From Corallium rubrum (lineage: Eukaryota > Cnidaria > Anthozoa > Scleralcyonacea > Coralliidae): 64,000 nt of DNA. Of the stretch, positions 1,807 through 64,000 are shown piece after piece (the stretch's first letter is position 1; every line of letters begins with the position of its first letter). Under the pieces are notes generated by a model, which was given only the letters and a program-made list of their open reading frames with translations, ran no database searches and was not told where the DNA came from. The stretch is from contig CAXIUP010000180.1 in the NCBI GenBank assembly GCA_964035015.1, positions 1 through 64,000 of the forward strand, given 5' to 3'. Made by a program: the position numbers and the translations under genes.

Positions 1807-2148
<342 letters not shown>

Positions 2149-27899: not shown

Positions 27900-28640
27900 T
27901 TAGGCATATGGTCGCAGCGGTGAAATAATCCAAATAGTGTAATTTCTTGAGGTTAGGCATATGGTCGCGGCAGTGAAATACTCCAAATAATGTAACTTCT
28001 TGAGGTTAGGCATATGGTCGCGGCAGTGAAATAATCCAAATAGTGTAATTTCTTGAGGTTAGGCATATGGTCGCAGCGGTGAAATAATCCAAATAGTGTA
28101 ACTTCTTGAGGTTAGGCATATGGTCACAGCGGTGAAATAATCCAAATAGTGTAACTTCTTGAGGTTAGGCATATGGTCACAGCGGTGAAATAATGCAAAT
28201 AGTGTAACTTCTTTAGGTTAGGCATATAGTGGCAGCGGTGACATAATCCAAATAGAGTAACTTCTTGAGGTTAGGCATATGGTCGCAGCGGTGAAATAAT
28301 CCAAATAGTGTAATTTCTTGAGGTTAGGCATATGGTCGCGGCAGTGAAATACTCCAAATAATGTAACTTCTTGAGGTTAGGCATATGGTCGCGGCAGTGA
28401 AATAATCCAAATAGTGTAATTTCTTGAGGTTAGGCATATGGTCGCAGCGGTGAAATAATCCAAATAGTGTAACTTCTTGAGGTTAGGCATATGGTCACAG
28501 CGGTGAAATAATCCAAATAGTGTAACTTCTTGAGGTTAGGCATATGGTCACAGCGGTGAAATAATGCAAATAGTGTAACTTCTTTAGGTTAGGCATATAG
28601 TGGCAGCGGTGACATAATCCAAATAGAGTAACTTCTTGAG
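27900..28640 (+). repeat. 7-monomer tandem duplication inside the array
   Basis: The marker TTTAGGTTAGGCATATAGTG occurs at about 28,212 and 28,583, exactly 371 bp or 7 monomers apart. The preceding variants are repeated in the same order. This looks like a recent local duplication by unequal exchange or slippage. Confidence 0.75.
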
Positions 28641-28699
28641 GTTAGGCATATGGTCGCAGCGGTGAAATAATCCAAATAGTGTAACTTCTTGAGGTTAGG

Positions 28700-43079: not shown

Positions 43080-45980
43080 AATCCAAATAGTGTAACTTCT
43101 TCAGGTTAGGCACATGGTCGCAGCGGTGAAATAATCCAAATAGTGTAACTTCTTGACGTTAGGCATATGGTCGCGGTGGTGAAATACTCCAAATAATGTA
43201 ACTTCTTGAGGTTAGGCATATGGTCGCGGCAGTGAAATAATCCAAATAGTGTAACTTCTTGAGGTTAGGCATATGGTCGCAGCGGTGAAATAATCCAAAT
43301 AGTGTAACTTCTTGAGGTTAGGCATATGGTCGCAGCGGTGAAATAATCCAAATAGTGTAACTTCTTGAGGTTAGGCATATGGTCGCAGCGGTGAAATAAT
43401 CCAAATAGTGTAACTTCTTGTGGTTAGGCATATGGTCGCAGCGGTGAAATAATCCAAATAGTGTAACTTCTTGAGGTTAGGCATATGGTCACAGTAGTGA
43501 AATAATGCAAATAGTGTAACTTCTTGAGGTTAGGCATATAGTCGCAGCGGTGACAGAATCCAAATTGTGTAACTTCTTGAGGTTAGGCAGATGGTCGCAG
43601 CGGTGAAATAATCCAAATAGTGTAACTTCTTGAGGTTAGGCATATGGTCGCGGCGGTGAAATACTCCAAATAATGTAACTTCTTCAGGTTAGGCATATGG
43701 TCGCGGCAGTGAAATAATCCAAATAGTGTAACTTCTTGAGGTTAGGCATATGGTCGCAACGGTGAAATAATCCAAATAGTGAAACTTCTTGAGGTTAGGC
43801 ATATGGTCGCAGGGGAAATAATCCAAATAGTGTAACTTCATGAGGTTAGGCATATGGCCACAGCGGTGAAATAATCCAAATAGTGCAACTTCTTGAGGAT
43901 AGGCATATGGCCACAGTGGTGAAATAATCCAAATAGTGTAACTTCTTGAGGTTAGGCATATGGTTGCAGCGGTGAAATAATCCAAATAGTGAAACTTCTT
44001 GAGGTTACGCATATGGTCGCAGCGGTGAAATAATCCAAATAGTGTAACTTCTTGAGGTTAGGCATATGGTTGCAGCGGTGAAATAATCCAAATAGTGTAA
44101 CTTCTTGATGTTAGGCATATGGTTGCAGTGGTGAAATAATCCAAATAGTGTAACTTCTTGAGGTTAGGCATATGGTCGCAGTGCTGAAATAATCCAAATA
44201 GTGTAACTTCTTGAGGTTAGGCATATGGTCGCAGCGGTGAAATAATCCAAATAGTGTAAATTCTTGAGGTTAGGCATATGGTCGCGGCAGTGAAATACTC
44301 CAAATAATGTAACTTCTTGAGGTTAGGCATATGGTCGCGGCAGTGAAATAATCCAAATAGTGTAATTTCTTGAGGTTAGGCATATGGTCGCAGCAGTGAA
44401 ATAATCCAAATAGTGTAACTTCTTGAGGTTAGGCATATGGTCGCTGTGGTGAAATAATCCAAATAGTGTAACTTCTTGAGGTTAGGCATATGGTCGCAGT
44501 GGTGAAATAATCCAAATAGTGTAACTTCTTCAGGTTAGGCACATGGTCGCAGCGGTGAAATAATCCAAATAGTGTAACTTCTTGACGTTAGGCATATGGT
44601 CGCGGTGGTGAAATACTCCAAATAATGTAACTTCTTGAGGTTAGGCATATGGTCGCGGCAGTGAAATAATCCAAATAGTGTAACTTCTTGAGGTTAGGCA
44701 TATGGTCGCAGCGGTGAAATAATCCAAATAGTGTAACTTCTTGTGGTTAGGCATATGGTCGCAGCGGTGAAATAATCCAAATAGTGTAACTTCTTGAGGT
44801 TAGGCATATGGTCGCAGCGGTGAAATAATCCAAATAGTGTAACTTCTTGTGGTTAGGCATATGGTCGCAGCGGTGAAATAATCCAAATAGTGTAACTTCT
44901 TGAGGTTAGGCATATGGTCACAGTAGTGAAATAATGCAAATAGTGTAACTTCTTGAGGTTAGGCATATAGTCGCAGCGGTGACAGAATCCAAATTGTGTA
45001 ACTTCTTGAGGTTAGGCAGATGGTCGCAGCGGTGAAATAATCCAAATAGTGTAACTTCTTGAGGTTAGGCATATGGTCGCGGCGGTGAAATACTCCAAAT
45101 AATGTAACTTCTTCAGGTTAGGCATATGGTCGCGGCAGTGAAATAATCCAAATAGTGTAACTTCTTGAGGTTAGGCATATGGTCGCAACGGTGAAATAAT
45201 CCAAATAGTGAAACTTCTTGAGGTTAGGCATATGGTCGCAGGGGGGAAATAATCCAAATAGTGTAACTTCATGAGGTTAGGCATATGGCCACAGCGGTGA
45301 AATAATCCAAATAGTGCAACTTCTTGAGGATAGGCATATGGCCACAGTGGTGAAATAATCCAAATAGTGTAACTTCTTGAGGTTAGGCATATGGTTGCAG
45401 CGGTGAAATAATCCAAATAGTGAAACTTCTTGAGGTTACGCATATGGTCGCAGCGGTGAAATAATCCAAATAGTGTAACTTCTTGAGGTTAGGCATATGG
45501 TTGCAGCGGTGAAATAATCCAAATAGTGTAACTTCTTGATGTTAGGCATATGGTTGCAGTGGTGAAATAATCCAAATAGTGTAACTTCTTGAGGTTAGGC
45601 ATATGGTCGCAGTGCTGAAATAATCCAAATAGTGTAACTTCTTGAGGTTAGGCATATGGTCGCAGCGGTGAAATAATCCAAATAGTGTAATTTCTTGAGG
45701 TTAGGCATATGGTCGCGGCAGTGAAATACTCCAAATAATGTAACTTCTTGAGGTTAGGCATATGGTCGCGGCAGTGAAATAATCCAAATAGTGTAATTTC
45801 TTGAGGTTAGGCATATGGTCGCAGCAGTGAAATAATCCAAATAGTGTAACTTCTTGAGGTTAGGCATATGGTCGCAGCGGTGAAATAATCCAAATAGTGT
45901 AACTTCTTGAGGTTAGGCATATGGTCACAGCGGTGAAATAATGCAAATAGTGTAACTTCTTTAGGTTAGGCATATAGTGG
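43080..45980 (+). repeat. 27-monomer higher-order repeat, two copies
   Basis: CTTCTTCAGGTTAGGCACAT near 43,096 and 44,525 are 1,429 bp apart, which is 27 monomers less the two bases missing at GCAGGGGAAAT near 43,810. A second marker pair further right is exactly 1,431 bp apart (44,012 and 45,443). The same block occurs at about 38.4 and 41.5 kb. Confidence 0.75.
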
Positions 45981-48900
45981 CAGCGGTGACATAATCCAAA
46001 TAGAGTAACTTCTTGAGGTTAGGCATATGGTCGCAGCGGTGAAATAATCCAAATAGTGTAACTTCTTGAGGTTAGGCATATGGGCGCATTGGTGAAATAA
46101 TCCAAATAGTGTAACTTCTTGAGGTTAGGCATATGGTCGCAGTGGTGAAATAATCCAAATAGTGTAACTTCTTGAGGTTAGGCACATGGTCGCAGCGGTG
46201 AAATAGTCCAAATAGTGTAACTTCTTGAGGTTAGGCATATGGTCGCAGTGCTGAAATAATCCAAATAGTGTAACTTCTTGAGGTTAGGCATATGGTCGCG
46301 GCAGTGAAATAATCCAAATAGTGTAATTTCTTGAGGTTAGGCATATGGTCGCGGCCGTGAAATAATCGAAATAATGTAACTTCTTGAGGTTAGGCATATG
46401 GTCGCAGCGGTGACATAATCCAAATAGTGTAACTTCTTCAGGTTGGGCATATGGTCACCGCGGTGAAATAATCCAAATAGTGTAACTTCTTGAGGTTAGG
46501 CATATGGTCACAGCGGTGAAATAATGCAAATAGTGTAACTTCTTGAGGTTAGGCATATAGTCGCAGCGGTGACATAATCCAAATAGTGTAACTTCTTGAG
46601 GTTAGGCATATGGTCGCAGTGGTGAAATAATCCAAATAGTGTAACTTCGTGAGGTTAGGCATATGGCCGCAGCGGTGAAATAATCCAAATAGTGTAACTT
46701 CTTGAGGTTAGGCATATGAGCGCAGTGGTGAAATAATCCAAATAGTGTAACTTCTTGAGGTTAGGCATATGGTCGCAGTGGTGAAATAATCCAAATAGTG
46801 TAACTTCTTTAGGTTAGGCACATGGTCGCAGCGGTGAAATAATCCAAATAGTGTAACTTCTTGAGGTTAGGCATATGGTCGCAGTGGTGAAATAATCCAA
46901 ATAGTGTAACTTCTTGAGGTTAGGCATATGGTTGCCGTGGTAAAATAATCCAAATAGTGTAACTTGTTGAGGTTAGGCATATGGTCGCGGTGGTGAAATA
47001 ATCCAAATAATGTAACTTCTTGAGGTTAGGCATATGGCCGCGGGAGTGAAATAATCCAAACAGTGTAACTTCTTGAGGTTAGGCATATGGTCGCAGTGGT
47101 GAAATAATCCAAAAAGTGTAACTTCTTGAGGTTAGCCATATGGTCGCAGCGGTGAAATAATCCAAATAGTGTAACTTCTTCAGGTTAGGCACATGGTCGC
47201 AGCGGTGAAATAATCCAAATAGTGTAACTTCTTGAGGTTAGGCATATGGTCGCAGTGATGAAATAATCCAAATAGTGTAACTTCTTGAGGTTAGGCATAT
47301 GGTCGCAGCGGTGAAATAATCCAAATAGTGTAATTTCTTGAGGTTAGGCATATGGTCGCGGCGGTGAAATACTCCAAATAATGTAACTTCTTGAGGTTAG
47401 GCATATGGTCGCGGCAGTGAAATAATCCGAATAGTGTAATTTCTTAAGGTTAGGCATATGGTCGCAGCGGTGAAATAATCCAAATAGTGTAAATTCTTGA
47501 GGTTAGGCATATGGTCGCAGCGGTGAAATAATCCAAATAGTGTAACTTCTTGAGGTTAGGCATATGGTCACAGTGGTGAAATAATGCAAATAGTGTAACT
47601 TCTTGAGGTTAGGCATATAGTTGCGACGGTGACATAATCCAAATAGAGTAACTTCTTGAGGTTAGGCATATGGTCGCAGCGGTGAAATAATCCAAATAGT
47701 GTAACCTCTTGAGGTTAGGCATATGGGCGCATTGGTGAAATAATCCAAATAGTGTAACTTCTTGAGGTTAGGCATATGGTCGCAGTGGTGAAATAATCCA
47801 AATAGTGTAACTTCTTGAGGTTAAGCACATGGTCGCAGCGGTGAAATAGTCCAAATAGTGTAACTTCTTGAGGTTAGGCATATGGTCGCAGTGCTGAAAT
47901 AATCCAAATAGTGTAACTTCTTGAGGTTAGGCATATGGTCGCAGCGGTGAAATACTCCAAATAATGTAACTTCTTGAGGTTAGGCATATGGTCACGGCAG
48001 TGAAATAATCCAAATAGTGTAATTTCTTGAGGTTAGGCATATGGTCGCGGCGGTGAAATAATCCAAATAATGTAACTTCTTGAGGTTAGGCATATGGTCG
48101 CAGCGGTGAAATAATCCAAATAGTGTAACTTCTTGAGGTTAGGCATATGGTTGCAGCGGTGAAATAATCCAAATAGTGTAACTTCTTGATGTTAGGCATA
48201 TGGTTGCAGTGGTGAAATAATCCAAATAGTGTAACTTCTTGAGGTTAGGCATATGGTCGCAGTGCTGAAATAATCCAAATAGTGTAACTTCTTGAGGTTA
48301 GGCATATGGTCGCAGCGGTGAAATAATCCAAATAGTGTAATTTCTTGAGGTTAGGCATATGGTCGCGGCAGTGAAATACTCCAAATAATGTAACTTCTTG
48401 AGGTTAGGCATATGGTCGCGGCAGTGAAATAATCCAAATAGTGTAATTTCTTGAGGTTAGGCATATGGTCGCAGCGGTGAAATAATCCAAATAGTGTAAC
48501 TTCTTGAGGTTAGGCATATGGTCGTAGTGCTGAAATAATCCAAATAGTGTAACTTCTTGAGGGTAGGCATATGGTCGCAGCGGTGAAATAATCCAAATAG
48601 TGTAATTTCTTGAGGTTAGGCATATGGTCGCAACGGTGAAATAATCCAAATAGTGAAACTTCTTGAGGTTAGGCATATGGTCGCAGGGGGGAAATAATCC
48701 AAATAGTGTAACTTCATGAGGTTAGGCATATGGCCACAGCGGTGAAATAATCCAAATAGTGCAACTTCTTGAGGATAGGCATATGGCCACAGTGGTGAAA
48801 TAATCCAAATAGTGTAACTTCTTGAGGTTAGGCATATGGTTGCAGCGGTGAAATAATCCAAATAGTGAAACTTCTTGAGGTTACGCATATGGTCGCAGCG

Positions 48901-51900
48901 GTGAAATAATCCAAATAGTGTAACTTCTTGAGGTTAGGCATATGGTTGCAGCGGTGAAATAATCCAAATAGTGTAACTTCTTGATGTTAGGCATATGGTT
49001 GCAGTGGTGAAATAATCCAAATAGTGTAACTTCTTGAGGTTAGGCATATGGTCGCAGTGCTGAAATAATCCAAATAGTGTAACTTCTTGAGGTTAGGCAT
49101 ATGGTCGCAGCGGTGAAATAATCCAAATAGTGTAATTTCTTGAGGTTAGGCATATGGTCGCGGCAGTGAAATACTCCAAATAATGTAACTTCTTGAGGTT
49201 AGGCATATGGTCGCGGCAGTGAAATAATCCAAATAGTGTAATTTCTTGAGGTTAGGCATATGGTCGCAGCAGTGAAATAATCCAAATAGTGTAACTTCTT
49301 GAGGTTAGGCATATGGTCGCAGCGGTGAAATAATCCAAATAGTGTAACTTCTTGAGGTTAGGCATATGGTCACAGCGGTGAAATAATGCAAATAGTGTAA
49401 CTTCTTTAGGTTAGGCATATAGTGGCAGCGGTGACATAATCCAAATAGAGTAACTTCTTGAGGTTAGGCATATGGTCGCAGCGGTGAAATAATCCAAATA
49501 GTGTAACTTCTTGAGGTTAGGCATATGGGCGCATTGGTGAAATAATCCAAATAGTGTAACTTCTTGAGGTTAGGCATATGGTCGCAGTGGTGAAATAATC
49601 CAAATAGTGTAACTTCTTGAGGTTAGGCACATGGTCGCAGCGGTGAAATAGTCCAAATAGTGTAACTTCTTGAGGTTAGGCATATGGTCGCAGTGCTGAA
49701 ATAATCCAAATAGTGTAACTTCTTGAGGTTAGGCATATGGTCGCAGCAGTGAAATAATCCAAATAGTGTAATTTCTTGAGGTTAGGCATATGGTCGCGGC
49801 CGTGAAATAATCGAAATAATGTAACTTCTTGAGGTTAGGCATATGGTCGCAGCGGTGACATAATCCAAATAGTGTAACTTCTTCAGGTTGGGCATATGGT
49901 CACCGCGGTGAAATAATCCAAATAGTGTAACTTCTTGAGGTTAGGCGTATGGTCACAGCGGTGAAATAATGCAAATAGTGTAACTTCTTGAGGTTAGGCA
50001 TATAGTCGCAGCGGTGACAAAATCCAAATAGTGTAACTTCTTGAGGTTAGGCATATGGTCGCAGTGGTGAAATAATCCAAATAGTGTAACTTCGTGAGGT
50101 TAGGCATATGGCCGCAGCGGTGAAATAATCCAAATAGTGTGACTTCTTGATGTTAGGCATATGGTTGCAGTGGTGAAATAATCCAAATAGTGTAACTTCT
50201 TGAGGTTAGGCATATGGTCGCAGTGCTGAAATAATCCAAATAGTGTAACTTCTTGAGGTTAGGCATATGGTCGCAGCGGTGAAATAATCCAAATAGTGTA
50301 ATTTCTTGAGGTTAGGCATATGGTCGCGGCAGTGAAATACTCCAAATAATGTAACTTCTTGAGGTTAGGCATATGGTCGCGGCAGTGAAATAATCCAAAT
50401 AGTGTAATTTCTTGAGGTTAGGCATATGGTCGCAGCGGTGAAATAATCCAAATAGTGTAACTTCTTGAGGTTAGGCATATGGTCACAGCGGTGAAATAAT
50501 CCAAATAGTGTAACTTCTTGAGGTTAGGCATATGGTCACAGCGGTGAAATAATGCAAATAGTGTAACTTCTTTAGGTTAGGCATATAGTGGCAGCGGTGA
50601 CATAATCCAAATAGAGTAACTTCTTGAGGTTAGGCATATGGTCGCAGCGGTGAAATAATCCAAATAGTGTAACTTCTTGAGGTTAGGCATATGGGCGCAT
50701 TGGTGAAATAATCCAAATAGTGTAACTTCTTGAGGTTAGGCATATGGTCGCAGTGGTGAAATAATCCAAATAGTGTAACTTCTTGAGGTTAGGCACATGG
50801 TCGCAGCGGTGAAATAGTCCAAATAGTGTAACTTCTTGAGGTTAGGCATATGGTCGCAGTGCTGAAATAATCCAAATAGTGTAACTTCTTGAGGTTAGGC
50901 ATATGGTCGCGGCAGTGAAATAATCCAAATAGTGTAATTTCTTGAGGTTAGGCATATGGTCGCGGCGGTGAAATAATCGAAATAATGTAACTTCTTGAGG
51001 TTAGGCATATGGTCGCAGCGGTGACATAATCCAAATAGTGTAACTTCTTCAGGTTGGGCATATGGTCACCGCGGTGAAATAATCCAAATAGTGTAACTTC
51101 TTGAGGTTAGGCGTATGGTCACAGCGGTGAAATAATGCAAATAGTGTAACTTCTTGAGGTTAGGCATATAGTCGCAGCGGTGACAAAATCCAAATAGTGT
51201 AACTTCTTGAGGTTAGGCATATGGTCGCAGTGGTGAAATAATCCAAATAGTGTAACTTCTTGAGGTTAGGCATATGGTCGCAGCGGTGAAATAATCCAAA
51301 TAGTGTAACTTCTTGAGGTTAGGCATATGAGCGCAGTGGTGAAATAATCCAAATAGTGTAACTTCTTGAGGTTAGGCATATGGTCGCAGTGGTGAAATAA
51401 TCCAAATAGTGTAACTTCTTCAGGTTAGGCACATGGTCGCAGCGGTGAAATAATCCAAATAGTGTAACTTCTTGAGGTTAGGCATATGGTCGCAGTGGTG
51501 AAATAATCCAAATAGTGTGACTTCTTGAGGTTAGGCATATGGTTGCCGTGGTAAAATAATCCAAATAGTGTAACTTGTTGAGGTTAGGCATATGGTCGCG
51601 GTGGTGAAATAATCCAAATAATGTAACTTCTTGAGGTTAGGCATATGGTCGCGGGAGTGAAATAATCCAAACAGTGTAACTTCTTGAGGTTAGGCATATG
51701 GTCGCAGTGGTGAAATAATCCAAAAAGTGTAACTTCTTGAGGTTAGCCATATGGTCGCAGCGGTGAAATAATCCAAATAGTGTAACTTCTTGAGGTTAGG
51801 CACATGGTCGCAGCGGTGAAATAATCCAAATAGTGTAACTTCTTGAGGTTAGGCATATGGTCACAGTGATGAAATAATCCAAATAGTGTAACTTCTTGAG

Positions 51901-54238
51901 GTTAGGCATATGGTCGCAGCGGTGAAATAATCCAAATAGTGTAATTTCTTGAGGTTAGGCATATGGTCGCGGCGGTGAAATACTCCAAATAATGTAACTT
52001 CTTGAGGTTAGGCATATGGTCGCGGCAGTGAAATAATCCGAATAGTGTAATTTCTTGAGGTTAGGCATATGGTCGCAGCGGTGAAATAATCCAAATAGTG
52101 TAACTTCTTGAGGTTAGGCATATGGTCGCAGCGGTGAAATAATCCAAATAGTGTAACTTCTTGAGGTTAGGCATATGGTCACAGTGGTGAAATAATGCAA
52201 ATAATGTAACTTCTTGAGGTTAGGCATATGGTCGCGGCAGTGAAATAATCCAAATAGTGTAATTTCTTGAGGTTAGGCATATGGTCGCAGCGGTGAAATA
52301 ATCCAAATAGTGTAACTTCTTGAGGTTAGGCATATGGTCGCAGCGGTGAAATAATCCAAATAGTGTAACTTCTTGAGGTTAGGCATATGGTTGCAGCGGT
52401 GAAATAATCCAAATAGTGTAACTTCTTGATGTTAGGCATATGGTTGCAGTGGTGAAATAATCCAAATAGTGTAACTTCTTGAGGTTAGGCATATGGTCGC
52501 AGTGCTGAAATAATCCAAATAGTGTAACTTCTTGAGGTTAGGCATATGGTCGCAGCGGTGAAATAATCCAAATAGTGTAATTTCTTGAGGTTAGGCATAT
52601 GGTCGCGGCAGTGAAATACTCCAAATAATGTAACTTCTTGAGGTTAGGCATATGGTCGCGGCAGTGAAATAATCCAAATAGTGTAATTTCTTGAGGTTAG
52701 GCATATGGTCGCAGCGGTGAAATAATCCAAATAGTGTAACTTCTTGAGGTTAGGCATATGGTCGCAGTGCTGAAATAATCCAAATAGTGTAACTTCTTGA
52801 GGGTAGGCATATGGTCGCAGCGGTGAAATAATCCAAATAGTCTAATTTCTTGAGGTTAGGCATATGGTCGCGGCGGTGAAATACTCCAAATAATGTAACT
52901 TCTTGAGGTTAGGCATATGGTCGCGGAAGTGAAATAATCCAAATAGTGTAATTTCTTGAGGTTAGGCATATGGTCGCAGTGGTGAAATAATCCAAATAGT
53001 GTAACTTCTTGAGGTTAAGCACATGGTCGCAGCGATGAAATAGTCCAAATAGTGTAACTTCTTGAGGTTAGGCATATGGTCGCAGTGCTGAAATAATCCA
53101 AATAGTGTAACTTCTTGAGGTTAGGCATATGGTCGCGGTGGTGAAATACTCCAAATAATGTAACTTCTTGAGGCGAGGCATATGGTCGCGGAAGTGAAAT
53201 AATCCAAATAGTGTAACTTCTTGAGGTTAGGCATAAGGTCGCAGTGGTGAAATAATCCAAATAGTGTAACTTCTTGAGGTTAGGCGTAGAGTCGCAGCGT
53301 TGAAATAATCCAAATAGGGTAACTTCTTGAGGTTAAGCATATGAAGGCAGCAGTGAAATAATCCAAATAGTGTAACTTCTTGAGGTTAGGCATATGGTCG
53401 CAGCGGTGAAATAATCCAAATAGTGCAACTTCTTGAGGATAGGCATATGGTCACAGTGGTGAAATAATCCAAATAGTGTAACTTCTTGAGGTTAGCCATA
53501 TGGTCGCAGCAGTGAAATAATCCTATAATGTAACTTCTTGATGTTAGGCATATGGTCACAGAGGTGAAATAATCCAAATAGTGTAACTTCTTGAGGTTAG
53601 GCATATGGTCGCAGCGGTGAAACAATCCGAATAGTGTAGCTTCTTGAGGTTAGGCATATGGTCGCAGCGGTGAAATAATCCAAATAGTGTAACTTCTTGA
53701 CGTTAGGCATATGGTCGCGGTGGTGAAATACTCCAAATAATGTAACTTCTTGAGGTTAGGCATATGGTCGCGGCAGTGAAATAATCCAAATAGTGTAACT
53801 TCTTGAGGTTAGGCATATGGTCGCAGCGGTGAAATAATCCAAATAGTGTAACTTCTTGTGGTTAGGCATATGGTCGCAGCGGTGAAATAATCCAAATAGT
53901 GTAACTTCTTGAGGTTAGGCATATGGTCGCAGCGGTGAAATAATCCAAATAGTGTAACTTCTTGTGGTTAGGCATATGGTCGCAGCGGTGAAATAATCCA
54001 AATAGTGTAACTTCTTGAGGTTAGGCATATGGTCACAGTAGTGAAATAATGCAAATAGTGTAACTTCTTGAGGTTAGGCATATAGTCGCAGCGGTGACAG
54101 AATCCAAATTGTGTAACTTCTTGAGGTTAGGCAGATGGTCGCAGCGGTGAAATAATCCAAATAGTGTAACTTCTTGAGGTTAGGCATATGGTCGCGGCGG
54201 TGAAATACTCCAAATAATGTAACTTCTTCAGGTTAGGC

Positions 54239-54258
54239 ATAGATAGATAGATAGATAG
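54239..54258. repeat. (ATAG)n tail at the retrotransposon 3' end
   Basis: Five tandem ATAG units directly join satellite and element. On the element's sense strand this is a CTAT-type repeat at the extreme 3' end. Short tandem repeats instead of poly(A) are usual 3' tails in CR1-related elements. Confidence 0.85.
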
Positions 54259-54426
54259 AAAACTTTATTTAAACACGCTGACCCCGTCAACCGAAGCTGA
54301 TTTCCACGAGGGGCGTGTGTGAAAGAAGTGTACAAGTATAGTATAAAAAATTATTTACAAGATATAAGATATAGTATTAAGTAAGTTAGTAACGAAATTA
54401 TCTAATAGTAATGTTCTAAAATTATC

Positions 54427-54541
54427 TACACTGTTAATTTCAAGGAGTCAGTCCAACTCCAAAAGGAGTCACTCTGAACCTAATTTAGGTTCAGAATAAC
54501 TCCCCCCGGAGTCAAACTAACTCCCCGAAATCAACAGTGTA
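54427..54541 (-). repeat. 115-bp foldback in the 3' UTR (possible palindromic MITE or RNA hairpin)
   Basis: Two 57-bp arms surround a single central base (54,484). The innermost 11 bp (TCTGAACCTAA and its complement) are perfect. Across the arms there are 13 differences and no gaps. Every one is A against C or C against A on the + strand, so in the retrotransposon's sense RNA (- strand) every one is a G.U wobble and the whole arm can pair. The termini are TA-CACTGTT and AACAGTG-TA, which also fits a small palindromic transposon with TA target duplication inserted in the 3' UTR. I infer a hairpin in the mRNA; which origin is right is open. Confidence 0.85.
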
Positions 54542-54593: not shown

Positions 54594-57476
54594 CTATTTA
54601 CATTTACTATCTATGTGAGTAGCGATTTTCTTTCGAAAGGAAGAAAGAGATTTGCTTTCCCTAATTTCTTTTGGAACCGAATTCCAGAGGTATGCTCCGT
54701 CGTACATGAAACTTTTTTTCATATTGTTAGTACGAGGTTTTGGTAAAGAAAGACTACTGGAAATGTCGCGAAGATTATAATTTGTCATCTCACCTTTATA
54801 TGTGAAAAGATTAGTGAGTGACTCAGGACCCATTTTGTTTAATAATTTGTACATCATTTTTGCTTTAGCTTTCTTCCTTTCTGTTTTAAGTGTCTTCCAG
54901 CCCAGTGCTTGTAAAGCAACGGAATGATCTATGTCATTGCTCATATTCATAATAATTCGAGCAGCTCTATTTTGGAGTTTTTGGAGTCGTTTTGATTGTG
55001 TTTCACCAAACACATCCCATACTTCACAGCAGTAATCAAAGTATGGGCGAACAATAGCATTATAAACAGCAAGAAGTGTTTGCTTATTAGCAAATTCTTT
55101 TAAACGTCGAAGAGCCGAAATTCCTGCTGTTATTTTCTTGCAAATATTTTCAGTATTACTCTTCCAAGACAAATGCTGGTCAACTGTCACTCCAAGAGTT
55201 TTACATTCATAAACTTGTTTAACCGGTTTATTTTCAATCTCAATATTTGGTTGTAAACTTTTTATCATTTGTTTTGAACCAATTAACATAAATTCAGTCT
55301 TCGCTACATTTAGGCTAAGTTTGTTAGCAATTAACCATTTTCTAAGGTTTTCCAAATCAGAATTCACTGCAGCTTCAAGATGAGTTATAGAGTCTCCAGA
55401 AGCTGTTAGGTTTGTGTCGTCAGCAAACAATCGCGGTTTTGTTTCATACAGACATTGAGGTAAATCATTAATATATAATAGAAAGAATAGTGGCCCTAAA
55501 ATAGAGCCTTGTGGTACTCCACATTTAATCAATTTCTCTGATGAAGTAGATCCTTTTATTTGGCATTTTTGACCTCGATTTGAGAGATAAGATTTGAGAA
55601 ATGATACAGCTTGTCCTTTTACCCCATAAAGCTCCAATTTCCTCAATAGAATTTGATGATCAACAGTATCAAATGCTTTTTTTAAGTCAATTAAGACTAC
55701 TAGATTAAACATTTTCCTGTCTAAATTAACATACCAATCATTAGTACAGTCCAGTAATGCTGTAGCTGTAGAGTGAGATTTTCGAAACCCAAATTGACAA
55801 TCACTTAAAATTCCAAATTTGGTTAGATAGTTATACAGTTGATCATACAGAATTCGTTCCATAATTTTGCTAATGGCCGGCAAAACTGAAATTGGTCTGT
55901 AATTTCCTGCCACATTTCGTTGACCATTTTTGTAAAGAGGCATTACTCTAGCCATTTTCCATTCATCAGGGAAAGAGGATAGAGCAACTGCCTGATTAAA
56001 AATATGTGTCAGTGAATCTGAGATGGCAGGTGCAGCTATTTTAATAATTTTACAAGAAATTTTATCAACGCCAGTGGCTTTATTGCTAGAAAGACCATTC
56101 AGGAGATGGTAGACATGACTGATGGTAACCGGCTGAAATGCAGCGAACTCTGATTTGGAATTCTTGACATACGTTTCAAAGTTGTTATTTGAAGTCTCAA
56201 TTTTGCTAGCTAAATCAGGGCCAATATTGGAAAAATACTCATTAAAGCCCTCTGCAATATCTTTGGGATTTGTTAAACTATTTTCACCTAGTTTTAGCTC
56301 ATTCACCACTGTTGGTTTGTTTTGCCTACCTAATAAATTGTTTATAGTTTTCCAAGCCTCTTTAGGATCGCATTTTTGACCAGCAATTTTCATGGAATAA
56401 TAATCTTTTTTGGCATTTCTTAGTTCTATATTCACTTTATTTCTAGTTGTTTTATAGTTTAACCAATCATTTTCTAGGTTTGTAATAATGGCTTTTCTTT
56501 TTAATTTGTCCCTTGTATTTATAAGTTCCTTTATAGCACTTGTAATCCAAGGATTTTTTTTTGCCCTAATCCTTTTGTGTTGAAGTGGTGCATGTTTATC
56601 TAGAACCTCTAAAAATAATTGCTTCCAAATTTCCCACTTTGTATTTGGATTTTCAGCAAAAAAATACACATTTTCCCAGTGTTGTTGCTTCAGATCCTCA
56701 ATAAATTTTTGGTTATCAAATTTTTTCATATTTCTAATCTCAACAGTGTTTTCTTGTTTTTTAATAACAGAAATTTTCCTGATTGCAAATACTAAACTAT
56801 GGTCGCTTATACCTGTATGGATAACGCCAGAATCAGAAACTTTCTCTGGAGTATTAGTTACTATATGATCAATTTGGCTGGAGGTTGTCATAGTTATCCG
56901 CGTAGCTTCATCGATCAATTGTGATAATTGATACAATTCATATAAAGATTTAATTTTCTTTGTTGGCATATTTGAATCTTCACCTGATTTTAGCATATCA
57001 CAGTTTAGATCACCAAGAATATACATTTCTTTATTTTCATCATCAATGGCTTTGATTAATTTTTCCAAATGATCAAAGAATTCAGATGATGCATTGGGTG
57101 GTCTATAAACTGTTGTAACAATGAATGGTCTGCTATGAGGTTTTATTATTTCTATACAAACAGCCTCTAGTTCAGTCGAAACAAGATCAAACCTTATTTT
57201 GTGATTGATGGAGTTACGTAAATAAATACAAACTCCACCCCCATTTCTTGACCGGTCCTTCCTAATAATATCGTAACCATCTATGTGGATCAAGTTATCG
57301 TTTATACTTGAATCTAGTCTGGTCTCATTAAACGCTATCAAATCAATGTTTTTGTTTGACATAGAATAACGAATTTCATCAATTTTTTTGGGCAAACTAA
57401 CAATGTTTAGAAAAGCCATTTTAAAACCTTTCTTTTTAGAAACAGATTGAAGTGCTGTGAAAAAATCGCCACTCAC
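54594..57476 (-). CDS. ORF2: endonuclease-reverse transcriptase of the CR1-like element
   Basis: About 960 codons without interruption. N-terminal APE-type endonuclease: AFLNIVSLPK, NETRLD (Glu51), VYRPP (about 124), GDLN (Asp156), SDHSL (Asp225-His226). Reverse transcriptase: NYRPISVLPAISK (about 526), FGFRKSHST, LIDLKKAFD (motif A Asp597), CGVPQGSILGP (652-662) and FADD (684-687). The C-terminal part carries RLQKLQNRAARII and a final WNSVPKEIRE segment. The protein nicks target DNA and copies the element RNA there (target-primed reverse transcription). The listed 5' limit is a GTG; the frame stays open upstream into the end of ORF1, and the first in-frame ATG is at 57,419, just before the nuclease. 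Translation probably uses reinitiation after ORF1 or that ATG. All catalytic motifs checked are intact. Confidence 0.93.
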   Translation of the reverse strand: MSGDFFTALQSVSKKKGFKMAFLNIVSLPKKIDEIRYSMSNKNIDLIAFNETRLDSSINDNLIHIDGYDIIRKDRSRNGGGVCIYLRNSINHKIRFDLVSTELEAVCIEIIKPHSRPFIVTTVYRPPNASSEFFDHLEKLIKAIDDENKEMYILGDLNCDMLKSGEDSNMPTKKIKSLYELYQLSQLIDEATRITMTTSSQIDHIVTNTPEKVSDSGVIHTGISDHSLVFAIRKISVIKKQENTVEIRNMKKFDNQKFIEDLKQQHWENVYFFAENPNTKWEIWKQLFLEVLDKHAPLQHKRIRAKKNPWITSAIKELINTRDKLKRKAIITNLENDWLNYKTTRNKVNIELRNAKKDYYSMKIAGQKCDPKEAWKTINNLLGRQNKPTVVNELKLGENSLTNPKDIAEGFNEYFSNIGPDLASKIETSNNNFETYVKNSKSEFAAFQPVTISHVYHLLNGLSSNKATGVDKISCKIIKIAAPAISDSLTHIFNQAVALSSFPDEWKMARVMPLYKNGQRNVAGNYRPISVLPAISKIMERILYDQLYNYLTKFGILSDCQFGFRKSHSTATALLDCTNDWYVNLDRKMFNLVVLIDLKKAFDTVDHQILLRKLELYGVKGQAVSFLKSYLSNRGQKCQIKGSTSSEKLIKCGVPQGSILGPLFFLLYINDLPQCLYETKPRLFADDTNLTASGDSITHLEAAVNSDLENLRKWLIANKLSLNVAKTEFMLIGSKQMIKSLQPNIEIENKPVKQVYECKTLGVTVDQHLSWKSNTENICKKITAGISALRRLKEFANKQTLLAVYNAIVRPYFDYCCEVWDVFGETQSKRLQKLQNRAARIIMNMSNDIDHSVALQALGWKTLKTERKKAKAKMMYKLLNKMGPESLTNLFTYKGEMTNYNLRDISSSLSLPKPRTNNMKKSFMYDGAYLWNSVPKEIRESKSLSSFRKKIATHIDSKCK

Positions 57477-57508: not shown

Positions 57509-58954
57509 CTATTTCATTACTTTGTTTACATACTCCAGATACATTGTCCAGTCTCTCCTCTGATGTCCATGAGCTGCACGAAAAAAATGTTCATTGTTCT
57601 TAGCAGGTACTGACTCTACTCTATCTGATTTTAGGTAAGTGCAGAAAGCACTCCCTAAAACCCTGTCTCCATTTCGATTTAAATGTAAATTTGACCTGTT
57701 CAATAATGACTGACCTATGCAATCATTATCAATAAATGTGATACTATGACTGAAACATAAATCATGTAATAAACTATTATATCGGTTGATCTTACTTGTT
57801 TGGACTTTACCATCATACCTTCTCACCACGCTGGATAATGCGATTTTCTTAGCGTGAGGTTTTATATCATCGATCAATCTTTCCATTTCCTTCGCAACTT
57901 CTTCTGGTTGTTTATGTACCAGGTCATTAGTGCCAACATGAACAACCACAGAGTCATAATCTTGTTCTTCGCACCAATCACTTTGTATTTTTTGTTTCAG
58001 TTGATCCACAGTTGCACCACTGTAAGAGTGGCAAACCGCCTTTCCTCGTGCTGCCCTTTCGACTTTTTGGTTGTCAATATGTTTGACCATTGAGTCACCT
58101 ATGACAAGTACTTTTTTTGTTTGGTTGGGTTTGATGTTGTTTCTGATTTTGCTTTTCTTGGATATTGGATCAGTCTGGCTTTTCCTTGAATTTATAAATT
58201 TAGATTTTTGTTTGGATCGATAGTCCAGAATTTGTGGGTCCACTTTATTTTTATCCTCAGTGGACACTCGAGAGCTGGAGTCGCTTCCTTCCACAGGGAG
58301 TATGTTGAAGCGGTTCTGATTTGTATATTTGGTAGAATAAAAACTAGAATTGGTAGAATCAGGATTTCTCTCACCTTCTACGGGATTTCTCTCGCCTTTT
58401 ACTTTCTCTGTTTTAGGTGTTTTCTTGGTTTCTATCTTAGTCCAGTCATTTTGTTTGATATCAAGAAATCGCCTGATAATTTTGTTTTCGCTCGTCAGTT
58501 CCTCGACGGTTGATTTGAGCGAGGCAATTTCATCCGCCATCTTGTTATTGCTTTCAAGAAGAGATCTTATATTGGCGTCGCTTTCTTCCGCTTTTGAAGT
58601 AATATTTTGAGCATCTTCTTGCTGTTTCTTTTGGATTTCCTTTACCGTAGTTATTATTTTGGTAATTTCTACCTTATAATGTTCACAATGTTCGCACGAA
58701 ATATCGTGAGCATCTTCTGCTTTGGTATCAACAACAACCACGTGTTCGATATCTTCGGCATCGGAAACTTCGCTTGTAATGGTTTCGTGGAGCGATTTGT
58801 GGGCATTACTCGCCAAAGCAGTTGAGAAGTACGTTTCGGCATCATCTTTCTTCATGATAGTTGAAGTATTCTTTCCAGTAGCTTTCGTAGTCAAGGTTCT
58901 TCTAGGAGCTTTTCCACCGATGGATTTACGAGCGGTTAGCTTGGTTCGAGCCAT
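57509..58954 (-). CDS. ORF1: histone H3 tail-like N-terminus, coiled coil and SGNH/GDSL esterase domain
   Basis: 481 residues. I chose the ATG at 58,954-58,952 over a GTG two codons earlier: this is a eukaryote and the context (AGCATGG) is good. After Met the protein reads ARTKLTARKSIGGKAPRR, then TLTTKATGKN. Against H3 residues 1-28 about 20 of 28 are the same, with the positions of R2, K4, R8, K9, S10, K14, R17, K23 and K27 kept. Next come a Cys/His motif CEHCEH (about 87-92), a coiled coil (about 95-165) and a basic, polar linker. A SGNH hydrolase follows: VIGDSMVKH (Ser288), SGATVDQL (block II Gly), VGTNDL (Asn343) and LHLNRNG (His424). The usual Asp three residues before that His is Ser. 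Esterase-type ORF1 proteins of CR1 elements bind RNA or lipid-related partners in the ribonucleoprotein. The H3-like tail is unexpected; chromatin docking is my inference. Confidence 0.9.
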   Translation of the reverse strand: MARTKLTARKSIGGKAPRRTLTTKATGKNTSTIMKKDDAETYFSTALASNAHKSLHETITSEVSDAEDIEHVVVVDTKAEDAHDISCEHCEHYKVEITKIITTVKEIQKKQQEDAQNITSKAEESDANIRSLLESNNKMADEIASLKSTVEELTSENKIIRRFLDIKQNDWTKIETKKTPKTEKVKGERNPVEGERNPDSTNSSFYSTKYTNQNRFNILPVEGSDSSSRVSTEDKNKVDPQILDYRSKQKSKFINSRKSQTDPISKKSKIRNNIKPNQTKKVLVIGDSMVKHIDNQKVERAARGKAVCHSYSGATVDQLKQKIQSDWCEEQDYDSVVVHVGTNDLVHKQPEEVAKEMERLIDDIKPHAKKIALSSVVRRYDGKVQTSKINRYNSLLHDLCFSHSITFIDNDCIGQSLLNRSNLHLNRNGDRVLGSAFCTYLKSDRVESVPAKNNEHFFRAAHGHQRRDWTMYLEYVNKVMK

Positions 58955-59162
58955 GCTCACGAATCACGAGAAAGGCTCCAAAATAATAACTAAAACTTTC
59001 ACGTATGCTTTCTTCAACAAGTAACTAAGTATAATATTGTAAATTACTCTAAAAGGAGCGAAAATTTCTTCAGAAATTGCGCTTTTTGAAGAAGAATATT
59101 TTGAACATGCTTTATTGACTTATTAATCTTCTCCGATTTCCACTGGCTAGTCATTCAGGTAT
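58955..59162 (-). other. 5' UTR and promoter region of the CR1-like element
   Basis: About 200 bp of AT-rich sequence lie between the satellite junction and ORF1. It contains a short self-complementary stretch (TTCTTCA ... TGAAGAA, about 59,068-59,096). I see no TATA box placed for a start outside the element, as expected for LINEs with internal promoters. Its presence argues that the copy is not strongly 5'-truncated. Confidence 0.55.
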
Positions 59163-62100
59163 ATATGGTCGCGGCAGTGAAATAATCCAAATAGTGTAAC
59201 TTCTTGAGGTTAGGCATATGGTCGCAGCGGTGAAATAATCCAAATAGTGAAACTTCTTGAGGTTAGGCATATGGTCGCAGGGGGGAAATAATCCAAATAG
59301 TGTAACTTCATGAGGTTAGGCATATGGCCGCAGCGGTGAAATAATCCAAATAGTGCAACTTCTTGAGGATAGGCATATGGCCACAGTGGTGAAATAATCC
59401 AAATAGTGTAACTTCTTGAGGTTAGGCATATGGTTGCAGCGGTGAAATAATCCAAATAGTGAAACTTCTTGAGGTTACGCATATGGTCGCAGCGGTGAAA
59501 TAATCCAAATAGTGTAACTTCTTGAGGTTAGGCATATGGTTGCAGCGGTGAAATAATCCAAATAGTGTAACTTCTTGATGTTAGGCATATGGTTGCAGTG
59601 GTGAAATAATCCAAATAGTGTAACTTCTTGAGGTTAGGCATATGGTCGCAGTGCTGAAATAATCCAAATAGTGTAACTTCTTGAGGTTAGGCATATGGTC
59701 GCAGCGGTGAAATAATCCAAATAGTGTAATTTCTTGAGGTTAGGCATATGGTCGCGGCAGTGAAATACTCCAAATAATGTAACTTCTTGAGGTTAGGCAT
59801 ATGGTCGCGGCAGTGAAATAATCCAAATAGTGTAATTTCTTGAGGTTAGGCATATGGTCGCAGCAGTGAAATAATCCAAATAGTGTAACTTCTTGAGGTT
59901 AGGCATATGGTCGCAGCGGTGAAATAATCCAAATAGTGTAACTTCTTGAGGTTAGGCATATGGTCACAGCGGTGAAATAATGCAAATAGTGTAACTTCTT
60001 TAGGTTAGGCATATAGTGGCAGCGGTGACATAATCCAAATAGAGTAACTTCTTGAGGTTAGGCATATGGTCGCAGTGGTGAAATAATCCAAATAGTGTAA
60101 CTTCTTGAGGTTAGGCATATGGGCGCATTGGTGAAATAATCCAAATAGTGTAACTTCTTGAGGTTAGGCATATGGTCGCAGTGGTGAAATAATCCAAATA
60201 GTGTAACTTCTTGAGGTTAGGCACATGGTCGCAGCGGTGAAATAGTCCAAATAGTGTAACTTCTTGAGGTTAGGCATATGGTCGCAGTGCTGAAATAATC
60301 CAAATAGTGTAACTTCTTGAGGTTAGGCATATGGTCGCGGCAGTGAAATAATCCAAATAGTGTAATTTCTTAAGGTTAGGCATATGGTCGCGGCCGTGAA
60401 ATAATCGAAATAATGTAACTTCTTGAGGTTAGGCATATGGTCGCAGCGGTGACATAATCCAAATAGTGTAACTTCTTCAGGTTGGGCATATGGTCACCGC
60501 GGTGAAATAATCCAAATAGTGTAACTTCTTGAGGTTAGGCGTATGGTCACAGCGGTGAAATAATGCAAATAGTGTAACTTCTTGAGGTTAGGCATATAGT
60601 CGCAGCGGTGACAAAATCCAAATAGTGTAACTTCTTGAGGTTAGGCATATGGTCGCAGTGGTGAAATAATCCAAATAGTGTAACTTCGTGAGGTTAGGCA
60701 TATGGTCGCAGCGGTGAAATAATCCAAATAGTGTAACTTCTTGAGGTTAGGCATATGAGCGCAGTGGTGAAATAATCCAAATAGTGTAACTTCTTGAGGT
60801 TAGGCATATGGTCGCAGTGGTGAAATAATCCAAATAGTGTAACTTCTTCAGGTTAGGCACATGGTCGCAGCGGTGAAATAATCCAAATAGTGTAACTTCT
60901 TGAGGTTAGGCATATGGTCGCAGTGGTGAAATAATCCAAATAGTGTAACTTCTTGAGGTTAGGCATATGGTTGCCGTGGTAAAATAATCCAAATAGTGTA
61001 ACTTGTTGAGGTTAGGCATATGGTCGCGGTGGTGAAATAATCCAAATAATGTAACTTCTTGAGGTTAGGCATATGGCCGCGGGAGTGAAATAATCCAAAC
61101 AGTGTAACTTCTTGAGGTTAGGCATATGGTCGCAGTGGTGAAATAATCCAAAAAGTGTAACTTCTTGAGGTTAGCCATATGGTCGCAGCGGTGAAATAAT
61201 CCAAATAGTGTAACTTCTTGAGGTTAGGCACATGGTCGCAGCGGTGAAATAATCCAAATAGTGTAACTTCTTGAGGTTAGGCATATGGTCGCAGTGATGA
61301 AATAATCCAAATAGTGTAACTTCTTGAGGTTAGGCATATGGTCGCAGCGGTGAAATAATCCAAATAGTGTAATTTCTTGAGGTTAGGCATATGGTCGCGG
61401 CGGTGAAATACTCCAAATAATGTAACTTCTTGAGGTTAGGCATATGGTCGCGGCAGTGAAATAATCCGAATAGTGTAATTTCTTGAGGTTAGGCATATGG
61501 TCGCAGCGGTGAAATAATCCAAATAGTGTAAATTCTTGAGGTTAGGCATATGGTCGCAGCGGTGAAATAATCCAAATAGTGTAACTTCTTGAGGTTAGGC
61601 ATATGGTCACAGTGGTGAAATAATGCAAATAGTGTAACTTCTTGAGGTTAGGCATATAGTTGCGACGGTGACATAATCCAAATAGAGTAACTTCTTGAGG
61701 TTAGGCATATGGTCGCAGTGGTGAAATAATACAAATAGTGTAAGTTCTTGAGGTTAGGCATATGCTCGCAGCGGTGAAATAATCCAAAGAGTGTAATTTC
61801 TTGAGCTTAGGCATATGGTCGCAGCGGTGAAATAATCCAAATAGTGTAACCTCTTGAGGTTAGGCACATGGTCGCAGCGGTGAAATAATCCAAATAGTGT
61901 AACTTCTTGAGGTTAGGCATATGGTCGCAGTGATGAAATAATCCAAATAGTGTAACTTCTTGAGGTTAGGCATATGGTCGCAGCGGTGAAATAATCCAAA
62001 TAGTGTAATTTCTTGAGGTTAGGCATATGGTCGCGGCGGTGAAATACTCCAAATAATGTAACTTCTTGAGGTTAGGCATATGGTCGCGGCAGTGAAATAA

Positions 62101-64000
62101 TCCGAATAGTGTAATTTCTTGAGGTTAGGCATATGGTCGCAGCGGTGAAATAATCCAAATAGTGTAAATTCTTGAGGTTAGGCATATGGTCGCAGCGGTG
62201 AAATAATCCAAATAGTGTAACTTCTTGAGGTTAGGCATATGGTCACAGTGGTGAAATAATGCAAATAGTGTAACTTCTTGAGGTTAGGCATATAGTTGCG
62301 ACGGTGACATAATCCAAATAGAGTAACTTCTTGAGGTTAGGCATATGGTCGCAGTGGTGAAATAATACAAATAGTGTAAGTTCTTGAGGTTAGGCATATG
62401 CTCGCAGCGGTGAAATAATCCAAAGAGTGTAATTTCTTGAGCTTAGGCATATGGTCGCAGCGGTGAAATAATCCAAATAGTGTAACCTCTTGAGGTTAGG
62501 CGTATGGTCGCAGCATTGAAGTAATCCAAATAGTGTAATTTCTTGAGGTTAAGCATATGATCGCAGCAGTGAAATAATCCAAATAGTGTAACTTCTTGAG
62601 GTTAGGCATAAGGTCGCAGGAGTGAAATAATCCAAATAGCGTAATTTCTTGAGGTTAGGAATATGGCCGCAGCAGTGAAATAATCCAAATAGTGCAACTT
62701 CTTGAGGATAGGCATATGGTCACAGTGGTGAAATAATCCAAATAGTGTAACTTCTTGGGGTTAGCCATATGGTCGCAGCAGTGAAATAATCCTATAATGT
62801 AACTTCTTGATGTTAGGCATATGGTCACAGTGGTGAAATAATCCAAATAGTGTAACTTCATGAGGTTAGGCATATGGTCGCAGCGGTGAAATAATCCAAA
62901 TAGTGTAACTTCTTGAGGTTAGGCATATGGCCGCAGCGGTGAAATAATCCAAATAGTGTAACTTCATGAGGTTAGGCATATGGTCGCAGGGGGGAAATAA
63001 TCCAAATAGTGTAACTTCATGAGGTTAGGCATATGGCCGCAGCGGTGAAATAATCCAAATAGTGCAACTTCTTGAGGATAGGCATATGGTCACAGTGGTG
63101 AAATAATCCAAATAGTGTAACTTCTTGAGGTTAGCCAATATGGTCGCAGCAGTGAAATAATCCTATAATGTAACTTCTTGATGTTAGGCATATGGTCACA
63201 GTGGTGAAATAATCCAAATAGTGTAACTTCTTGAGGTTAGGCATATGGTCGCTGTGGTGAAATAATCCAAATAGTGTAACTTCTTGAGGTTAGGCATATG
63301 GTCGCAGTGCTGAAATAATCCAAATTGTGTAGCTTCTTGAGGTTAGGCATATGGTCGCAGCAGTGAAATAATCCAAATAGTGGAACTTCTTCAGGTTAGG
63401 CATATGGTCGCTGCGGTAAAATAATCCAAACAGTGTAACTTCTTGACGTTAGGCATATGGTCGCAGCAGTGAAATAATCCAAATAGTGTAACTTCTTGAT
63501 GTTAGGCATATGGTGGCAGCGATGAAATAATCCAAATAGTGTAACTTCTTGAATTAGGCATATGGCCGCAGCGGTGAAATAATCCAAATAGTGCAACTTC
63601 TTGAGGATAGGCATATTGTCACAGTGGTGAAATAATCCATATAGTGTAACTTCTTGAGGTTAGCCATATGGTCGCAGCAGTGAAATAATCCAAATAGTGT
63701 AACTTCTTGATGTTAGGCATATTGTCACAGCGGTGAAATAATCCAAATAGTGTAACTTCTTCAGGTTGTAGGGCATATGGTTGCAGTGGTGAAATAATCC
63801 AAATAGTGTAACTTCTTGAGGTTAGGCATATGATCACAGCGGTGAAATAATCCAAATAATGTAACTTCTTGAGGATAGGCATATGGTCACAGTGGTGAAA
63901 TAATCCAAATAGTGTAACTTCTTGAGGTTAGCCATATGGTAGCAGCGGTGAAATAATCCAAATATTGTAACTTCTTGATGTTAGGCATATGGTCACAGCG
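59163..64000 (+). repeat. 53-bp satellite array, right block (about 91 monomers, continues beyond the window)
   Basis: Same monomer, orientation and variant order as the main block. The first monomers (GTCGCGGCAG, GTCGCAGCGG with GTGAAACTTC, GTCGCAGGGGGG) continue the series broken by the retrotransposon. A 12-monomer duplication is marked by GCTCGCAGCGG at 61,764 and 62,400 (636 bp). From about 62.5 kb the monomers are more diverse (for example CTTGAATTAGGC, CAGGTTGTAGGGC), which may mean the array edge is near. Confidence 0.97.

Follow-up and report, generated by a model that had tools for sequence, protein, structure and literature searches.

A LINE family in Corallium rubrum whose ORF1 begins with a histone H3-derived tail

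The first open reading frame (ORF1) of a retrotransposon in the genome of Corallium rubrum opens with a segment of 32 residues that, judging from codon-by-codon comparison, derives from a histone H3 gene of the replication-dependent type in the same animal genome. Related elements of this genome have another N-terminal domain at the same place, and the H3 tail has replaced it. The overall architecture of the element is that of known LINEs; its N-terminal module is of a new kind. In our judgement, the chances are evenly balanced that its ORF1 protein is a functional H3-tail mimic, which would dock on those host proteins that bind the H3 tail, in the first place an import receptor and in the second place chromatin readers.

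Architecture of the element and its copies

The window (the whole stretch of DNA that was analysed, positions 1-64000, 64,000 nucleotides) contains a LINE of about 4.9 kb, located on the minus strand and embedded in a 53-bp satellite (Table 1). Twenty-six Wnt-family matches show the genome to be that of an animal, and its H3 types look metazoan. The second open reading frame of the element (ORF2) has the sequence signatures of a non-LTR retrotransposon with an APE endonuclease. The ORF2 product matches Pfam families PF03372 (E = 4.7e-12) and PF00078 (E = 3.1e-34), as well as the LINE-1 and R2 ORF2 structures in PDB (LINE-1 ORF2 at E = 3.1e-18); at the genome level, the copies are interspersed, share their 3' end and are truncated to different extents at the 5' end, as in the usual picture of a LINE. 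The label CR1-like, which we take over from an earlier sequence-only reading of the window, is presumptive. ORF1 belongs, by sequence similarity, to the esterase-type class, on account of an SGNH esterase domain at residues 281-435 that is matched by Pfam PF13472 (E = 5e-10) and by PDB entry 4c1b, itself an ORF1-encoded protein (E = 9.6e-7). The putative coiled coil ahead of the esterase gave only weak Pfam matches of the coiled-coil type. Neither Pfam nor PDB sequence searches returned a match to an RRM in ORF1, and there was no PHD finger among Pfam matches up to E = 1.

Table 1. Features of the LINE and of its surroundings in the window
Feature	Position	Strand	Basis or remark
53-bp satellite, 3' side of the insertion	4050..54241	.	
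3' end: TTTAAATAAAGTTT, then (TCTA)n microsatellite tail	54240..54259	-	
Palindromic element in the 3'UTR, 57-nt arms, 77% complementary	54427..54541	.	
ORF2, endonuclease and reverse transcriptase, FADD at 684	54594..57476	-	Pfam, PDB structures
ORF1, 481 aa and stop	57509..58954 (coding 58954-57512; stop codon 57511-57509)	-	
SGNH/GDSL esterase domain, ORF1 residues 281-435, motifs at 286, 339 and 422	57650..58114	-	Pfam, PDB
Coiled-coil-like region, ORF1 residues ~100-180	58415..58657	-	Weak Pfam matches and conserved block in alignment A1; nature and extent presumed
H3-derived segment of ORF1, Met and H3 residues 1-32, ARTKLTARKSIGGKAPRRTLTTKATGKNTSTI	58856..58954	-	Codon-by-codon comparison with H3 genes
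H3 residues 1-24, best-preserved part, 20/24 amino acids unchanged	58880..58951	-	
5'UTR	58955..59103	-	127 nt adjoining ATG (58955-59081) identical in 6/6 copies
62-nt filler at the 5' junction	59104..59165	-	62/62 identical to C28:13495534-13495595
53-bp satellite, 5' side of the insertion	59163..64000	.	

Parts of the 62-nt filler also turn up, at 83-89%, in another 11 places (13 matches including the filler itself), and the filler is thus a member of a small dispersed repeat. Three Rfam matches on this junction all scored below the gathering scores, and we consider them to be chance. Pieces similar to the palindromic element of the 3'UTR are found elsewhere in the genome in both orientations.

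When the genome was queried with ORF1, at least 92 matches were found, six of them beginning at residue 1 (89 of 1279 candidates scored). The full 341-nt 3' query was matched at 96-100% identity in at least 15 places (40 of 588 candidates scored). Since 3' ends outnumber ORF1 starts, and since two family copies, L022 and L037, are known to lack their 5' part, the copies beyond those with an ORF1 start are probably 5'-truncated as well. The family is thus of low copy number. Of the six copies that have the ORF1 start, four have ORF1 in full length (481 aa), and in four ORF2 is open over 998-999 codons. Among individual copies, L024 ends at its 3' side in a TCTA tract that has expanded, L064 adjoins a 6-bp microsatellite, and L063 adjoins a few short GC-rich units.

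Origin of the tail and the domain that it replaced

In minus-strand translation, the N-terminus of ORF1 reads MARTKLTARKSIGGKAPRRTLTTKATGKNTSTI. The Met codon (58954-58952) directly precedes the codon of the alanine that corresponds to H3 residue 1 (58951-58949), as had been pointed out in the sequence-only reading, and there is no upstream ATG within 128 nt 5' of the start (context AGCATGG) in any of the six copies. The H3-like peptide is in register, and could form a free N-terminus. The identity of about 20 in 28 residues that was noted at the outset holds against canonical H3 (20 of residues 1-28), and rises to 21/28 against the replication-dependent H3 of the host, because the latter also has Thr19. 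Relative to host H3, the segment carries 11 changes, namely Q5L, T11I, K18R, A21T, A25T, R26G, S28N, A29T, P30S, A31T and T32I. Thus the sites R2, K4, R8, K9, S10, K14, R17, K23 and K27 are all in register, in agreement with the sequence-only reading, but the losses are not limited to K18 and S28, which it had named: T11 has become Ile, and R26 has become Gly. With R26 replaced by Gly, the ARKS motif around K27 has disappeared (TGKN), and the combination of R26G and S28N destroys the K27 motif. Similarity to H3 extends to codon 32 (2/3 nt) and falls to background from codon 33; codons 33-39 match H3 at 4 of 21 nucleotides, so that the boundary of homology is sharp. No histone fold follows the tail in the comparison with host H3 genes, since H3 homology stops at codon 33.

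The resemblance to H3 is not fortuitous. In a phmmer search with the whole ORF1 against 177,635 PDB sequences, histone H3 matched residues 1-32 with E = 7.4e-5 and was the second-best match, after the LINE ORF1 esterase 4c1b. In the opposite direction, an H3 query of the 474-Mb genome gave 14 matches up to E = 10, which consist of five H3 genes of the replication-dependent type, one of the H3.3 type, two divergent exons in C51, and the six ORF1 starts, at E values between 0.0016 and 0.006. Taken together, these E values rule out chance. A query with the tail only gave 12 matches, the same six ORF1 starts and six histone genes.

Codons of the tail were compared with the five replication-dependent H3 genes and the one H3.3-type gene of the same genome. 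Over Met and 28 codons, 67 of 87 nucleotides are shared with the nearest H3 gene; of these 29 codons, 14 are identical, eight are synonymous, and seven encode a different residue. This alignment at the DNA level marks the tail as a capture. Position 19 is Thr in all five replication-dependent genes and in the tail, and Gln in canonical H3 and in the H3.3-type gene. H3.3 was therefore rejected as the donor (61/87 nt and Gln19, versus 65-67/87 nt and Thr19 for the five replication-dependent genes). The sequence-only reading had named, as the case against itself, a one-off capture of a host H3 gene in this copy. The DNA indeed aligns to a host H3 gene; the capture, however, is not confined to a single copy, because all six copies found with an ORF1 start have the tail and are identical over 211 of 211 nucleotides, comprising 127 nt of 5'UTR and 84 nt of coding sequence.

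Outside their own family, relatives of this ORF1 in the genome have 35-58% identity to it (matches of the ORF1 query, with own copies and fragments excluded). For a comparison of N-termini, 40 loci were fetched (L019-L058), and a profile of the N-terminal domain of the relatives (A2), built from 12 of them, was run against ORFs of at least 100 codons. Of these loci, 26 have ORFs that match the profile. None of the five tail ORFs in the set does so, and the window's own tail ORF, the sixth, is not part of the set. The other nine loci are the two truncated family copies, L022 and L037; four relatives whose upstream part is interrupted, truncated or rearranged (L026, L043, L045, L050); and L044, L057 and L058, which have yet another N-terminus. 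In alignment A1, the tail family and the relatives become homologous again from about residue 34, so the H3 tail occupies the site of the domain of the relatives. As their ORF1s hold another N-terminal domain exactly where the tail stands, we conclude that this domain has been replaced, and that the tail is not ancestral to the whole group of LINEs.

The displaced domain is predicted to be folded. In the structural model of the L038 domain (12 sequences, pTM 0.61), the order of predicted strands and helices is E-E-H-E-E-E-H-E-H; ten-residue mean pLDDT is 85-91 in residues 31-110, and residues 1-30 are modelled with low confidence. A Pfam search with N-termini of three relatives and a profile search of PDB gave nothing above cut-off, and a DEAD-box match at E = 0.028 is considered chance. 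Outside this genome, searches of viral contigs and genome contigs for relatives returned pattern matches, none of them confirmed, and the DNA pattern of the tail had no match in viral contigs.

The likely origin of the tail is a template jump, in which the reverse transcriptase of the element would have left the LINE RNA and continued on the 5' part of an H3 mRNA. LINE reverse transcriptases are described as switching templates and fusing host RNAs (PMC2104539). We favour this route because at their 5' ends copies of the family bear sequence that is foreign or has been exchanged: besides the filler from another locus in the window copy, two other heads occur, one shared by L019 and L020 and found only there, the other shared by L021, L023 and L024. 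The 149-nt 5'UTR of the element, compared by blastn-short with 1500 nt upstream of each of the six H3 genes, has nothing significant adjoining their start codons; its best match (16/17 nt, E = 0.015) lies about 1.1 kb upstream of one H3 gene, and the best match of a reversed-sequence control was 11 nt (E = 0.24). With no convincing match upstream of the H3 genes, co-capture of the 5'UTR with the H3 codons is unsupported. The leader of the donor transcript appears to be missing, as the 5'UTR of the element is unlike that of the H3 genes, and a later exchange of the 5' head, after the capture, therefore has to be supposed.

Constraint on the tail and its possible function

Constraint on H3 residues 1-24 is likely, albeit not proven. 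It is suggested by the distribution of changes, which affect four of 24 residues in this part versus seven of eight in residues 25-32 (20/5000 in a permutation that scans for the breakpoint). When the tail is compared with the five H3 genes, NG86 omega is 0.11-0.155 (unpolarised). In neutral simulation with 20 nucleotide differences, seven or fewer amino acid changes were seen in 0.22% of 5000 runs; with fewer differences assigned to the side of the element, the proportion increases to 5.5% (16 differences) and 26% (13 differences), and significance is lost. At 10 of the 11 changed sites, all six H3 genes of the host have the same residue (the exception is residue 31, Ala in five genes and Ser in H3.3), and for this reason the 11 changes are most simply placed on the side of the element. 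With H3.3 as outgroup, polarisation assigns 9-10 nonsynonymous and 4-7 synonymous substitutions in codons 1-31 to the tail branch, which is not far from neutral. The neutral probability for codons 1-17 comes to 0.0025 when all 10 differences are counted as element-side, and to 0.19 when only five are. The dN/dS comparison of the tail with the H3 genes favours constraint in its unpolarised form and not in the polarised one, and the gradient of amino acid changes vanishes when only residues 1-27 are counted (2131/5000). A comparison within the family has no power to show selection, since the six copies hardly differ: the tail is invariant, and ORF1 outside it has only 22 differences.

The same numbers bear on the possibility that the tail is a neutral relic, i.e., that ORF1 obtained its start codon when the 5' end of the element was fused by accident to an H3 transcript, and that the tail has since been idle and drifting. 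Near-neutral substitution on the polarised branch fits this account, and so does the change of nearly every one of residues 25-32. The family is also young, aligned pieces of its copies being 97.9-99.9% identical to the window copy at the DNA level, so that hitch-hiking would be enough to explain the identical tails. Against a relic speak the low unpolarised omega, the uneven distribution of changes along the tail, and the survival of 20 of the first 24 residues at approximately 23% nucleotide divergence (20/87 nt). We consider a relic unlikely.

A different proposal, that of the sequence-only reading, was that the tail recruits HP1, PHD or tudor readers, or modifiers, and thereby steers integration into satellite heterochromatin or protects it there. 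It has in its favour that the K4/K9/S10/K14 region is intact and in register. The surroundings of 14 copies were examined (the window copy, L019-L024, L037 and L061-L066), and three of them are inside long tandem arrays, namely the window copy (53-bp units), L023 (36-bp) and L037 (19-bp). Among 13 related insertions (L025-L036 and L038), TRF rows show none with one array on both sides, although tandem repeats flank five of them (L025, L026, L033, L035, L036) on one side or both. Conversely, 11 of the 14 copies are outside long arrays, with the 3' flank covered only up to about 160 nt for six of these (L061-L066), and just one of the 14 is in the 53-bp satellite, in a sample that is small. Three copies in 14 do not make a rule; satellite targeting is left unsupported, and we regard this proposal as very doubtful.

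It has also to be asked whether charge would suffice. The H3 tail could have served as a ready-made basic and disordered N-terminus with affinity for RNA, membranes or other acidic surfaces, in the manner of L1ORF1p. With the tail, the N-terminal 35 residues carry a net charge of +10, compared with -5 to +4 in 14 other aligned N-termini, and in L044, another family, the N-terminus is basic and the usual domain is missing. Human L1ORF1p is reported to require positive N-terminal charges irrespective of their identity (PMC5940361), and the authors of the study of ZfL2-1, finding esterase-type ORF1 proteins without RNA-binding domains, propose basic peptides in their stead (PMC3905857). On the other hand, 12 of the 14 aligned relatives have an N-terminal net charge of at most +3 (the L042 and L047 rows are incomplete), and the identities of Lys and Arg are preserved in the tail apart from K18R and R26G. 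The non-basic residues are unchanged at nine of 11 positions in 1-17 versus four of 11 in 18-32, with a Fisher p of only 0.08. An effect of charge without regard to sequence is, to our mind, a minor but appreciable possibility.

We favour, at even odds, the tail as a functional H3-tail mimic because the import signal and the reader motifs are both retained in residues 1-24, and because a coiled coil, if present, would multiply the tail. These residues contain A1-R2-T3-K4 and A7-R8-K9-S10, which we take to be the motifs that reader domains bind; Q5L and T11I presumably alter contacts with such domains. Residues 1-28 of H3 are described as a nuclear localization signal, in which K14 and K23 bind Kap123, with the consensus small-K-small-(6 or more)-K (PMC5677370). 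The element keeps G13-K14-A15 and, at least six residues away, K23, which fits the requirement of the two lysine pockets of Kap123.

If residues 1-24 were retained for use as a genuine H3-tail mimic, the initiator Met would be removed to leave a free H3-like N-terminus, and the ORF1 protein would multimerise by means of its putative coiled coil, as the coiled coil of ZfL2-1 is reported to dimerise (PMC3905857), so as to display several H3 tails. The displayed tails might then dock on H3-tail-binding host proteins, through which the LINE particle would enter the nucleus and reach chromatin. Among these proteins, a histone import receptor of the Importin-4/Kap123 type would be the likeliest partner, followed by proteins that read the K4/K9 region in its unmodified or methylated state. 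The complete scenario of histone mimicry, in which a tail was captured, a domain was swapped, residues 1-24 are kept, multimeric tails are imported, modified and read by the host as histone, and the particle is delivered to chromatin, is a tentative one, to which we give somewhat less than even weight.

Relation to known systems

A literature search of openly licensed PMC papers found no transposon with an H3 tail, and among the H3-tail mimics of genomic parasites that we know of, this one would be the longest. Outside the histones, tail mimics such as the ARTK site of G9a and the tail of influenza NS1 are H3-like peptides of a few residues in a host or parasite protein, whereas here a homologous stretch of 32 codons was captured at the N-terminus of a transposon protein. 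If the tail is functional, the nuclear entry of a LINE and its finding of chromatin become testable with one short peptide, as does the question of whether a fully displayed H3 tail can hijack modifiers and readers of the host. Even if inert, it is a record of a host histone coding segment captured by a LINE, and the displaced domain is still present in sister families. PHD fingers are a class of domains that read the H3 tail, and a LINE that carries the tail itself would mirror the ORF1s that have PHD fingers.

The closest described architecture is that of the esterase-type element ZfL2-1 of Danio (PMC3905857; PDB structure: 4c1b), placed by its authors in the CR1 clade. As far as its description goes, it shares with the coral element an ORF2 with endonuclease and reverse transcriptase, the SGNH esterase, a region before the esterase that in the coral protein is putatively coiled-coil-like, the lack of an RRM match, and a microsatellite 3' end. 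It differs in that the coral ORF1 opens with the 32-residue H3 tail, while relatives in the same coral genome have another, unnamed domain. As to their distribution, esterase-type ORF1s are found only in vertebrate groups in the sample of one survey (PMC4120745), and cnidarians and sponges are also named in the account of ZfL2-1 (PMC3905857).

Human L1ORF1p likewise has a disordered and strongly basic N-terminus before its coiled coil; there, as reported (PMC5940361), charge suffices and sequence is irrelevant, and here the sequence is that of H3. With the H3 import signal recognised by Kap123/Importin-4, as described in PMC5677370, the coral tail shares residues 1-24, including K14, K23 and their small neighbours, but it stands on a LINE ORF1 protein with no histone fold, and 4/24 of these residues are changed. 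Modular ORF1s, and among them those bearing PHD fingers, are already known (PMC4120745). The PHD-finger ORF1s of elements from the CR1 and L2 lineages, as presented in that survey, resemble the coral ORF1 in having an N-terminal module connected with the H3 tail and in the modular, reticulate mode of their evolution. Those proteins have a possible reader of the tail; the coral LINE, in whose ORF1 the Pfam search found no PHD finger, carries the tail itself.

Palindromic element in the 3'UTR of the LINE

The 3'UTR of the LINE contains a palindromic element, found in at least 15 genome copies, which are the full matches to the 341-nt 3' query (40 of 588 candidates scored), and similar pieces also occur at other genome sites. 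At positions 4903542-4903773 of another contig, C52, both flanks of the element abut directly, with 96-98% identity; judged by its sequence, this place is an empty site for the palindromic element. The empty site suggests that the LINE family has been mobile in this genome both before and after insertion of the palindrome.

Variation in ORF1 proteins

In ORF1 of the LINE, a tandem duplication repeats the GERNP stretch of the protein; this repeat was not found in the 14 rows of other families aligned with the tail-family ORF1.

The N-terminal domain of relatives, displaced in the LINE by the H3 tail, is confidently predicted to adopt a small mixed alpha/beta fold, and matched nothing above cut-off in Pfam (three N-termini searched) or in a profile search of PDB sequences. 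In one relative (L026), a tandem repeat reading GRHTTGRHTT opens the ORF1 frame and takes the place of this domain. A third kind of N-terminus, basic, unlike H3, and beginning with MSRRTRNSLASISEEDVERL, occurs in a related LINE (L044) found at two places in the genome. This hints that ORF1 N-termini have been exchanged more than once among these LINEs.

Features discussed in this section, in the window unless a locus of the same assembly is named
Feature	Position	Strand	Remark
Partial LINE-type reverse transcriptase frame	567-1679	plus	RVT_1, E 6.9e-19
ORF with GIY-YIG match below cut-off	1792-2541	minus	E 0.0048
Array of 8-bp TCTGCCCG units	1821-2115		adjoins GIY-YIG-like ORF
Palindromic element	54427-54541		57-nt arms
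Tandem duplication	58362-58402		21 bp
Tandem repeat at ORF1 start of relative	L026:5364-5468		15 bp
Displaced N-terminal domain of relatives	L038:5310-5639
ORF1 with third kind of N-terminus	L044:1870-3291

Other frames in the window, COX1 and host histones

The GIY-YIG-like ORF near the start of the window may be a Penelope-like remnant.

Contig C129 carries a full-length COX1 frame (L059) for which the standard code suffices, with no TGA for Trp, as well as additional COX1 matches, some with stops, and, on the opposite strand, a frame judged by eye to be NAD6-like. Such a contig is unusual for an animal mitochondrion, and the source is perhaps a passenger organism.

Instead of the Gln19 of canonical H3, all five replication-dependent-type H3 genes of the host (L009-L013) specify Thr19 (PRKTLATK); the host H3.3-type gene (L014) retains Gln19.
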